A stretch of 5,077 nt of DNA from Deltaproteobacteria bacterium (GTDB lineage: Bacteria > Bdellovibrionota > O2-12-FULL-43-9 > JACQJE01), in the NCBI GenBank assembly GCA_016205125.1, contig JACQJE010000150.1, positions 1 to 5,077 on the forward strand. The letters are read 5' to 3'. The notes under the pieces were generated by a model, which searched no databases, was not told where the DNA came from, and saw nothing but the letters and a program-made list of their open reading frames with translations. Positions 976-4,943 of the stretch are shown in pieces. Made by a program: the position numbers and the translations under genes. How positions within the stretch are numbered: the first letter of the stretch is position 1; each line of letters begins with the position of its first letter.

Positions 976-1320
976 TCACTTTCCTCCCGTATCTGGCGGT
1001 AAATTCTGAGGGGTCTCGGGTGCAGGTGCTGGAGATTCCGGAGTGGCCGGCTCCGATACAGGGGGAGGCGATTCTTGTTCCGAGATCACAGACGCCTGCC
1101 ATTTTTGCGAGGTGAGAAGAGTCAGCGCTATAGAAGTGCACATAAAAATAATAGCCGCTCCTGCAGTCAATCGGGTGAGGAGAGTGTTCCCCTGAGTTCC
1201 AAAAATGGTCTCACTCGAACCTCCTAACCCCATGATCATCCCCGATCGACCCGCCTGAAGGAGAATGATGAAAATCAGCATGAAAGAAACAACCACATGA
1301 ACAATCACCAGTAAAAGCAT
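976..1320 (-). CDS. secG: Preprotein translocase subunit SecG
   Basis: SecG is the small inner-membrane subunit of the SecYEG channel and assists the SecA-driven export cycle. The 114-residue protein shows the family layout. A first membrane helix (about residues 2-21) ends in LLQAGRSG. Next is the conserved cytoplasmic Gly-rich loop GLGGSSETIFGTQG (31-44), then LLTRLTAGAAIIF leading into a second membrane helix (about 52-70). A Pro/Glu-rich tail (81-110) is dispensable-looking and typically variable in the family. The ATG at 1320 follows AAAGGTGAG (1332-1324), a good ribosome binding site. The gene lies downstream of tpiA, as in many bacteria, but 290 bp separate them, filled by a foldback element and a promoter candidate. 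It may therefore be transcribed largely from its own promoter, together with the two leucine tRNAs. Confidence 0.95.
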   Translation of the reverse strand: MLLLVIVHVVVSFMLIFIILLQAGRSGMIMGLGGSSETIFGTQGNTLLTRLTAGAAIIFMCTSIALTLLTSQKWQASVISEQESPPPVSEPATPESPAPAPETPQNLPPDTGGK

Positions 1321-1422: not shown

Positions 1423-1633
1423 GGAGGGTCCCGGCAAAGTCATGACAGGGCGGCATAGGGATCTCTCGTAAAGGGGCTATGGAGCCGCCCAGAAATTTCG
1501 CAAATGATGGCTGGGCGGCGGAATGCAGCGCGGACTCATGCGACAAAAGGCAGCCTATGAATCATGATCGTGTCCGCGCGTCCCTTAAGAGAGATCCCTA
1601 TGCCGCCCTGTCATGACTTTGCCGGGACCCTCC
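1423..1633. repeat. Foldback element with 45-bp perfect inverted arms and two inner hairpins
   Basis: Positions 1423-1467 are the exact reverse complement of 1589-1633 (45 of 45). The stem continues imperfectly through TAA and GGG to about 1475/1582. The enclosed DNA is almost fully used by two smaller hairpins: 1484-1492 with 1511-1519 (GCCGCCCAG/CTGGGCGGC), and 1528-1535 with 1572-1579 (GCGCGGAC/GTCCGCGC), the latter extended by TCATG/CATGA. The predicted fold is a long stem ending in a T or Y of two arms. No protein is encoded. The right arm enters tpiA and provides its final codons and stop codon. I see no target-site duplication. It could be a MITE-like or other non-autonomous element, or a local inverted duplication of the tpiA end. 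Confidence 0.85.
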
Positions 1634-2390
1634 ATCTAAACGCTCCTGCTATGGCTAAAAACTCTTTCACTTTGAGACTTGCCCCCCCCACGAGGAATCC
1701 ATTTACTTCTGGCCGGCTTGCAAACTGAGCGGCGTTTTGAGAATGCACACTCCCTCCATAGACGACGCTCGCTTGATTCCCCCATGCCGGACTAAACTTC
1801 GCACAAAGGATCTGCCGAATGGCCCGATGAATATCGGCAATCTCTTCAGCTGAAGGGGTCTTGCCACTCCCAATGGCCCACACCGGCTCATACGCCACGA
1901 CCATTTCACCCCCTTTTTTTACGCCTCTCAAGCCTTCCAACAGTTGGCGTTCAATCTTTTGCAAAGTCTCCCCTCTCTCCCGCTCAGCCCATTGCTCGCC
2001 AATACAGAGGATTGGGACAAGTCCCGCCTCGACAATCGTGGCGACTTTCCTCCCCACAACTTCGTCAGATTCTCCAAAATGCATCCTTCGCTCTGAATGG
2101 CCGGCAATCACATAGCGGCAGCCGACGTCAGCCAGCATGAATGGCGAAATTTCACCTGTGTATGCCCCCCCCTTTTCCCAATGGCAATTCTGAGCACCTA
2201 AAGAATAGAGTCCCTTTTGAAATGGTTTCAGAATATCAAGTGCCGTCAAGGGGGGGATCAGAATCCACGCAACTCTTTTTGCAAGAGATGGCGACTGGAC
2301 CAAAGCAGAGTGCAGTTCCTGACAATAGGCCTTCGCCTCTTCACGGAACATGTTCATTTTCCAATTGGCAATCAGGAGGGGAGGCCGCAT
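1611..2390 (-). CDS. tpiA: Triosephosphate isomerase
   Basis: This cytoplasmic TIM-barrel enzyme interconverts dihydroxyacetone phosphate and glyceraldehyde 3-phosphate, usually as a dimer. All catalytic elements are visible in the 259 residues: Asn9 and Lys11 in ANWKMN, the electrophilic His98 in AGHSERR, and the base Glu168 in AYEPVWAIGSGKT, which also carries the mobile loop 6. The phosphate-binding YGGSV (211-215) and GGASL (235-239) follow. The ATG at 2390 overlaps the pgk stop codon by one base (TAATG), with GAGG about 10 nt upstream, so coupling to pgk is likely. The barrel ends normally near Phe251. The last residues (RWRVPAKS) look foreign to the family, because from the second base of the Trp253 codon the DNA belongs to the foldback element, which also supplies the TGA. 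Activity should be unaffected, since the catalytic core is complete. Confidence 0.97.
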   Translation of the reverse strand: MRPPLLIANWKMNMFREEAKAYCQELHSALVQSPSLAKRVAWILIPPLTALDILKPFQKGLYSLGAQNCHWEKGGAYTGEISPFMLADVGCRYVIAGHSERRMHFGESDEVVGRKVATIVEAGLVPILCIGEQWAERERGETLQKIERQLLEGLRGVKKGGEMVVAYEPVWAIGSGKTPSAEEIADIHRAIRQILCAKFSPAWGNQASVVYGGSVHSQNAAQFASRPEVNGFLVGGASLKVKEFLAIAGAFRWRVPAKS

Positions 2391-4762: not shown

Positions 4763-4943
4763 AGTTCGCATCCGGAAACAGCTTTCGTAGCGAGGCCGCG
4801 CGAAAGATTTTTGGTCAAGGCCGCAGGTGAAAAAGGATCCGAAGGCGTACCCCTGGGTACGTCGAGGATCCTTTTTTGCCGAGAACGCAGACCAAAAATC
4901 TTGCAGCCGGCCGCAGCAGAAAGGCTGTTTCCGGATGCGAACT
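4763..4943. repeat. 181-bp palindromic element with the TTTCCGGATGCGAACT motif at both ends
   Basis: The whole element is symmetrical about position 4853. Perfect inverted pairs are 4763-4782 with 4924-4943 (20 bp), 4804-4816 with 4890-4902 (13 bp, AAGATTTTTGGTC), 4830-4840 with 4866-4876 (11 bp, containing GGATCC) and 4846-4852 with 4855-4861 (7 bp). The stretches between them are partly complementary. It carries no credible gene and would extrude as a single long hairpin. Its ends match short motif copies elsewhere in the window, which suggests a dispersed palindromic repeat family of REP or MITE type. I see no target duplication. Confidence 0.8.
4830..4877. terminator. Bidirectional intrinsic terminator at the palindrome core
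   Basis: The stem is GGATCC/GGATCC plus CGTACCC/GGGTACG, interrupted by a small internal loop (GAAGG against TCGA). It is followed by six T on the plus strand and five T on the minus strand. It would stop transcripts arriving from either side and so isolate the gapA promoter from whatever lies to the right. Confidence 0.6.

Follow-up and report, generated by a model that had tools for sequence, protein, structure and literature searches.

A T-folding 207-bp repeat at the end of tpiA is one copy of a dispersed, probably MITE-type family in a member of the Bdellovibrionota

Small palindromic elements are common in bacteria, and the role of their folded shape is mostly unknown. Two described MITEs stand close to the element reported here. 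MITEAba12 is given as 113 bp long, with 16-bp TIRs, a 9-bp TSD and ISAba12 as its proposed mover (PMC6382973, passages cited), and QMITE2 as about 190 bp long, with 7-9-bp direct repeats and TIRs of 23-29 bp (PMC10969869, likewise). For the stems of RNA genes, template-switch maintenance has been outlined, in which the arms are corrected from each other and both sides change together (PMC8794818, in the part consulted here). The genome analyzed below amounts to a natural experiment, as a similar T-shaped core occurs in two families with different ends, and as paired changes separate shape from sequence. This makes it testable whether the fold itself serves movement. In addition, the elements supply gene ends, as in tpiA, or make proteins such as Der longer outside recognised domains.

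The element at the tpiA end

The window, i.e., the whole stretch of 5,077 nucleotides that was analyzed, is contig C75 (JACQJE010000150.1) of a single MAG (assembly of 1.36 Mb in 219 contigs, 78% complete). The gene order on its minus strand is gap, pgk, tpiA, the element, secG and two tRNA-Leu genes. The original prediction, 45-bp perfect arms around two hairpins, proved exact: the arms are reverse complements at 45 of 45 positions, and the two stems could be mapped back from alignment columns. The arms sit within a 55-nt inverted repeat (1420-1474 and 1582-1636, 95% identity). The ends of the other copies described below, (C)AGGGT...ACCCT(G), place the true element, termed F1, at about 1425-1631, so that the predicted unit 1423-1633 exceeds it by two flanking base pairs per side. 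Judging by these ends, the outermost two pairs of the window copy (GG/CC) are probably flanking DNA that matches by accident. The features are as follows.

976-1320, minus strand: secG, the next gene, on the same strand as tpiA
1425-1631, no strand assigned: F1 element, 207 bp, one of 19 genomic places
1423-1467, plus strand: left arm, perfect reverse complement of 1589-1633
1471-1477, plus strand: junction-closing stem, 5' side, pairing with 1580-1586, invariant in 7 of 7 copies
1478-1583, plus strand: T-core common to F1 and a second family, F3
1484-1519, plus strand: inner hairpin A, 8-bp stem (1484-1491/1512-1519) with 20-nt loop, conserved in F1 and covarying between F1 and F3
1528-1579, plus strand: inner hairpin B, 8-bp stem (1528-1535/1572-1579) with 36-nt loop, conserved in F1
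1580-1586, plus strand: junction-closing stem, 3' side, partner of 1471-1477
1589-1633, plus strand: right arm, containing the TGA stop of tpiA at 1611-1613
1611-2390, minus strand: tpiA (triosephosphate isomerase), with its last six residues, RVPAKS, and its stop within the element

Folding as DNA and as RNA, suggested together with the prediction, showed a T far more stable than shuffled sequence in both cases. For the 231-nt stretch 1415-1645, the RNA fold has -161.3 kcal/mol, at z -15.0 relative to 200 shuffles with a mean of -81.5 and an sd of 5.3. The DNA fold has -94.2 kcal/mol (z -15.9), and none of 200 shuffles was as stable in either calculation. The element has a G+C content of 58% (window, 51%) and stop codons in all six frames.

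Another inverted-repeat family, F2, is also present in the window (4763-4943), with at least 30 matching rows in the same genome at 67-100% identity, 40 of 41 candidates having been scored. In 12 inspected copies its layout is kept (GTCGAGG and GCAGC pieces), and the arm and end sequences differ widely. The F2 centre has weak matches in at least 3 of 58 related genomes, for some of which scoring stopped at 13 candidates. Lone F2-like ends, TCCGGATGAGAACTA at 711-732 and TCCGAATGAGAACTA at 1347-1368, flank the two tRNA-Leu genes and secG; this end occurs at 35 sites in the genome with up to two mismatches (reversed control, 0).

Dispersal, gene ends and candidate movers

Searching the whole genome with the 211-bp unit revealed a dispersed family. 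With E ≤ 0.001 as cut-off, the unit gave 42 BLAST rows, all 25 candidates having been scored, and the end motif of the arms was found at 26 sites with up to three mismatches (reversed-pattern control, 0). By our own count, rows and sites together reduce to 19 places, which fall into four groups.

Full or nearly full (7): window, C189, C121, C98, C159 at 3434 (right end missing), C159 at 7275, C41
Cut by contig ends (5): C151, C42, C162, C54, C62
Halves (3): C168, C9, C206
Internally shrunken (4): C101, C39, C28, C107

That contig ends hold 5 of the 19 places is in keeping with a repeat at which assemblies break. A recent origin, which had been offered as one reason for the perfect arms, is not supported by the family as a whole, as full copies are only 86-94% identical to the window copy (cut copies as low as 81%) and many others are cut or shrunken. 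What remains in C107 is a perfect palindrome of 36 bp, joined at GTCATGAC, which occurs in both arms; clear overlap at the junction was seen here and in C39 (where it is short) only, and the junctions of C101 and C28 have no overlap resolved by our script. In C101, C39 and C28, the target duplications described below are kept even though the middle is shrunken, and these copies have therefore lost the middle and not the ends.

No F1 copy was found in 58 relatives, of which one belongs to the same class and the others to the same phylum, and a covariance-model search with stricter filters agrees for the candidates scored, at most 40 per relative genome. The same 58 genomes, with their single member of the class, did not yield an empty F1 site.

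Flanking sequences support insertion with target duplication for part of the family. Among ten two-ended copies, four match at 8-9 of the 9 adjacent positions (C101 and C39 at 9/9, C121 and C28 at 8/9), C159b matches at 7, and the remaining ones at 4-6. The window copy reaches 5/9 at best and is thus without a target duplication, as are five of the nine other two-ended copies at a threshold of 8/9. In the controls, none of 90 cross pairs exceeded 6, and 35 of 20,000 shuffles reached 8.

Perfect arms in a fragmented MAG of 219 contigs could in principle have arisen by local inverted duplication or as an assembly artefact. The 19 dispersed places with common ends rule out the local duplication and, together with the diverged bodies and the target duplications, leave this explanation as a whole with next to no credibility. 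We consider it probable instead that the T in the window represents one copy of a palindromic 207-bp element, dispersed through the genome, which spreads as a non-autonomous DNA transposon of the MITE type. A non-autonomous mobile element had been one of the options in the original prediction, and dispersed copies, common ends and target duplications all speak for it. A transposase would cut and paste F1 by its (C)AGGGTCCCG ends, duplicating about 9 bp of target. This enzyme would presumably be a DDE transposase acting in trans, encoded by an element that is missing from the assembly or has been lost.

In 5 of the 19 places, a gene reads into F1 and stops there.

tpiA: ends in RVPAKS and a stop within F1
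DHO_dh gene: ends in RVPSNS and a stop within F1
Epimerase gene: ends in RVSAKS and a stop within F1
UDG-family gene: ends in RVPS and a stop within F1
Proline-dehydrogenase (PutA-type) gene: stops within F1 in another frame

The frame of the tpiA tail thus recurs in three other genes. Triosephosphate isomerase nevertheless looks whole, as the match to the TIM profile ends at residue 249 of 259, five residues ahead of the codons supplied by F1, and as, in an alignment, 12 of the 14 relatives terminate no more than two columns from the start of these codons (one of the other two extends as far as the final column, and the other carries a stray residue at its end). We infer that the supply of the tpiA end by F1 reflects neutral wear at a gene end and not regulation.

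These gene ends also bear on the possibility that F1 acts as RNA, with a transcribed T protecting or processing the 3' end of tpiA mRNA in an RNase III-type fashion and with the copies kept for that function. The very stable fold would suit such a role, genes terminate in F1 at the five places just listed, RNase III cleavage is reported at Correia elements in the cited part of PMC10969869, and there is one weak terminator-like site at 1418-1433 on the minus strand, i.e., the tpiA strand, at the secG-side edge (5 pairs, GTTTTTG; 0.4 expected by chance). No T run directly follows the stem of the T-fold, as an intrinsic terminator would have it. As a reason for the spread of the family, an RNA function is a poor fit, because copies are found among co-directional genes (8 of the 19 places by our own count, C98 being uncertain), divergent genes (5) and convergent genes (1), the other 5 being cut. 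A tally of 11 copies gave no sign that gene ends are preferred (among the left genes, 6 minus and 4 plus; among the right genes, 6 plus and 2 minus, with many pointing away), although it is small and its rule miscalled the left gene of the window. The orientations of the genes around F1 do not form a terminator pattern. Overall, we regard the RNA-level explanation as improbable.

Candidate movers were sought with profiles for DDE_Tnp_1, Transposase_mut and Y1_Tnp. Among the sites found in the 78%-complete assembly, no gene is flanked by F1 end pairs as in an autonomous F1. DDE_Tnp_1 matched one gene in the genome, located in an IS with ends other than those of F1, and Transposase_mut had no matches in the genome. 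The IS at L120 122-1450 combines DUF4372 with a DDE_Tnp_1 transposase and has 19-bp perfect ends, CCACTGCTGTCCCAACGTT, without an exact target duplication of 4-13 bp.

Y1_Tnp matched two genes, an intact one of 327 amino acids on C206 and one with an internal stop on C98. As both contigs also carry F1, and as a T shape suits a single-strand substrate, F1 might be REP/REPIN-like, with the Y1 tyrosine transposase (RAYT) of this genome moving it in the form of folded single-stranded DNA. This would be hard to reconcile with the target duplications of F1 and F3, since members of IS200/IS605 are described as producing no larger ones (PMC2817692, in the section cited). Moreover, F1 ends lack a GTAG/GTGG head, and no F1 end was found with up to four mismatches within the 3.3-kb RAYT locus. 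We regard movement by a RAYT as improbable, too. An intact RAYT-like gene is located at L119 889-1872 (Y1_Tnp, with a Bac_DnaA_C match below the cut-off), and a REP-like imperfect inverted repeat (26-nt arms, 85%) lies about 100 nt downstream of it at L119 716-786.

The original prediction had also compared the T to the T-shaped hairpin ends of some viral and transposon DNAs. The likeness holds for the shape only. Viral contigs contained no exact match to the 20-nt F1 end pattern. With the shape as the single point in its favor, the view of F1 as a remnant T-shaped replication end of a virus or linear replicon, integrated many times, also meets target duplications and, in the window, neighbors that are glycolysis genes, secG and tRNAs; we judge it very unlikely. 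A match in Oscillibacter was dismissed, as it consisted of a single exact 20-mer without a partner arm in the 500 surrounding bases, about one chance match being expected by our own estimate. Rfam gave no match above the gathering score; MIR2118 scored 36.9 bits versus a gathering score of 85, which we read as an effect of the palindrome.

Paired changes and a core common to two families

The three-way T fold is present in outline in 7 of 7 full F1 copies, and RNAalifold recovers the arms, the closing stem and the two hairpins from them. Among the 43 arm pairs, 24 are invariant, 9 have changed on both sides, 1 on one side, and 9 have unpaired cells only; these counts refer to seven related copies and to cells rather than events, and a one-base shift in the alignment of C41 accounts for some of the unpaired cells. 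Taking the structure as a whole, no shuffle out of 500 had as many two-sided changes or as high a covariation score, further pair types were reached by 78 of 500 shuffles, and structures slid along the alignment gave 0-2 two-sided pairs.

Of 289 letter cells in the arms, a single one is G.U, which counts against the RNA-level explanation; the point is a weak one, since the nine unpaired cells include four A-C, the equivalent of G.U on the other strand. The arm pattern is what template correction between the arms would give, and selection on paired ends could produce it as well. The arm changes by themselves do not separate selection from template correction. In the MITE-type reading that we prefer, the arms would stay complementary through DNA synthesis that is templated from one arm and corrects the other, or alternatively because paired ends are needed for movement.

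Within F1, 3 of 56 inner-stem columns (a set that includes two weak pairs) are variable versus 31 of 66 inner-loop columns (Fisher p 1.4e-7). The original prediction had named a unit confined to this locus, with unconserved inner hairpins, as the outcome that would speak against it; we found 19 places and conserved stems.

A covariance model of the T detected, besides F1, two places at E-values (rough ones) of 4e-5 and 0.004. Both belong to the second repeat family, F3, which has at least 13 places in this genome, where 13 of 57 candidates were scored, and none among the 58 relatives. F3 is 184 bp long in seven complete copies and 178 bp in one, starts with CAAAATCC (once CACAATCC) and ends with GGTGGATCAAGG. 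Its target duplications are 4-5 bp long: in eight places tested, four match at 5/5 and four at 4/5, compared to two of 56 cross pairs that reach 4 and none that reaches 5 (shuffles: 1487 of 20,000 reach 4, 91 of 20,000 reach 5). One F3 copy (L158, about 1463-1870; C36, two rows) has the usual left-end sequence inverted behind it, as if the end had been rewritten.

The outer arms of F3 are unlike those of F1, but the core is alike, approximately TGGAG-stem A-CGGAA...AGCGnGGAC...GTCCGnGCGTCC. Hand-typed consensus cores of the two families aligned with a score of 93 (maximum of 56 in 2000 dinucleotide shuffles), and the local alignment score was 35 (maximum of 29 in shuffles). Across 18 F1 and F3 cores, 6 of 18 pairs changed on both sides, with 31 cells, a total that none of 500 shuffles attained (shuffle mean, 10.5). 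As many two-sided pairs were seen in 26 of 500 shuffles and as many further pair types in 22 of 500, slid structures having 0-2 pairs; as these shuffles ignore the split into two families, the independent changes are fewer than counted.

Stem A reads GCCGCCCA/TGGGCGGC in F1, and GCACCACA/TGTGGTGC or GGCGAGCA/TGCGAGCC in F3. In the latter form (4 copies), G.A and A.G take the place of two adjacent Watson-Crick pairs, and in stem B the same replacement of two neighboring pairs is seen in 10 of 10 F3 cores. Tandem G.A pairs are stable in helices. They cannot arise when one strand is copied from the other, which argues for selection on the fold of the core. Selection on the folded form, as originally suggested for the element, is thus supported for the inner T by the joint stem changes between F1 and F3, and it may be what keeps this part of the element in shape.

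With its 5-bp duplication, an F3 insert adds 189 nt (184 + 5), i.e., 63 codons, and the copy that is 6 bp shorter still adds a multiple of three. In three genes, F3 lies in frame.

L148 1489-3186: der/EngA
L147 27-2480, minus strand: secreted subtilase
L156 5-1729: GH3 lipoprotein, reading frame open at the contig start

In der, F3 enters after MKRE, and the frame without F3 reads MKRELPTVVLIGRPNVGKSS; in the subtilase and the lipoprotein it is positioned before the catalytic domain. All three inserts are outside the recognised domain. Several other F3 copies adjoin gene starts. Selection on the F3 peptide itself is not supported: the three codon positions vary alike (18, 16 and 23 variable positions of 50, 50 and 49; p 0.29, 9 copies), the insert frame has one stop among the 9 copies, and a minus frame has none. 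A search of proteins with the insert brought up 10 candidates without any scored match; as the Der of this genome was missed as well, the database may lack it.

A broader reading is possible, though we hold it only tentatively. The T would be a structural cassette selected for its folded shape and carried by two mobile families with duplications of 9 bp and 4-5 bp, of which F1 is intergenic and supplies gene ends, and F3 writes 63 codons into proteins such as Der. This would make it a Rickettsia-like system in apparently another lineage, with a functional folded core.

Relation to known elements

In the traits given for MITEAba12 and QMITE2 in the passages cited above, F1 resembles these elements: it is short, non-coding and multicopy, with inverted ends, a duplication of about 9 bp and a stable fold, and as in those MITEs there are truncated and shrunken copies. 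One copy of MITEAba12 is likewise described as fusing a gene end to its own stop codon (PMC6382973). Unlike them, F1 has a G+C content of 58%, 43-bp arms plus two conserved hairpins and nearly complete self-complementarity, its parent IS was not found, and its core is shared with a family that has other ends. Measured against MITEs in general, F1 is short (207 bp, below 500 bp), contains no protein gene, and has 43-bp inverted arms and 19 places; target duplications are present in the family, not in the window copy, and the A+T-rich body that is typical of MITEs, although not required, is absent. Searching the literature by titles and the beginnings of abstracts, we found no report of a MITE whose structured core shows covariation or tandem G.A pairs, which is not proof of absence.

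Three other systems, compared here as far as the cited sections describe them, share single aspects. REP/REPIN elements with RAYTs (PMC2817692) resemble F1 in being palindromic and dispersed, with a RAYT-like gene present, and differ from it in size, ends and target duplications. They are palindromes of 20-40 bp with a GTAG-like head and a flanking RAYT, a combination that F1 lacks; such a length is reached only in its shrunken copies. Rickettsia palindromic elements (RPE; PMC2229807), compared by description only, resemble F3, which is palindromic and in frame inside three genes; for the RPE, the TSD is marked with a question mark in the table of that review, and F3 has 4-5-bp duplications. 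F1 differs from the RPE, as it has stops in all six frames, was found between genes or at gene ends, and lacks the in-frame insertion inside protein genes that F3 shows in three cases. Correia/NEMIS elements (PMC2229807) resemble F1 and F3 taken together, in that they too come as a pair of related forms: one carries stops and is mostly intergenic, and the other is fused into reading frames. In the Correia case, however, a single element occurs in two sizes (155 and 107 bp), whereas F1 and F3 have different ends and duplications of different length. Stem correction by template switching, finally, has been described for RNA genes (PMC8794818, in the part consulted), whereas for F1 it is proposed in a mobile element. 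In outline, then, F1 is probably a MITE, a known kind of element, but one with an unusual body, namely a shape-conserved core found in two mobile families.
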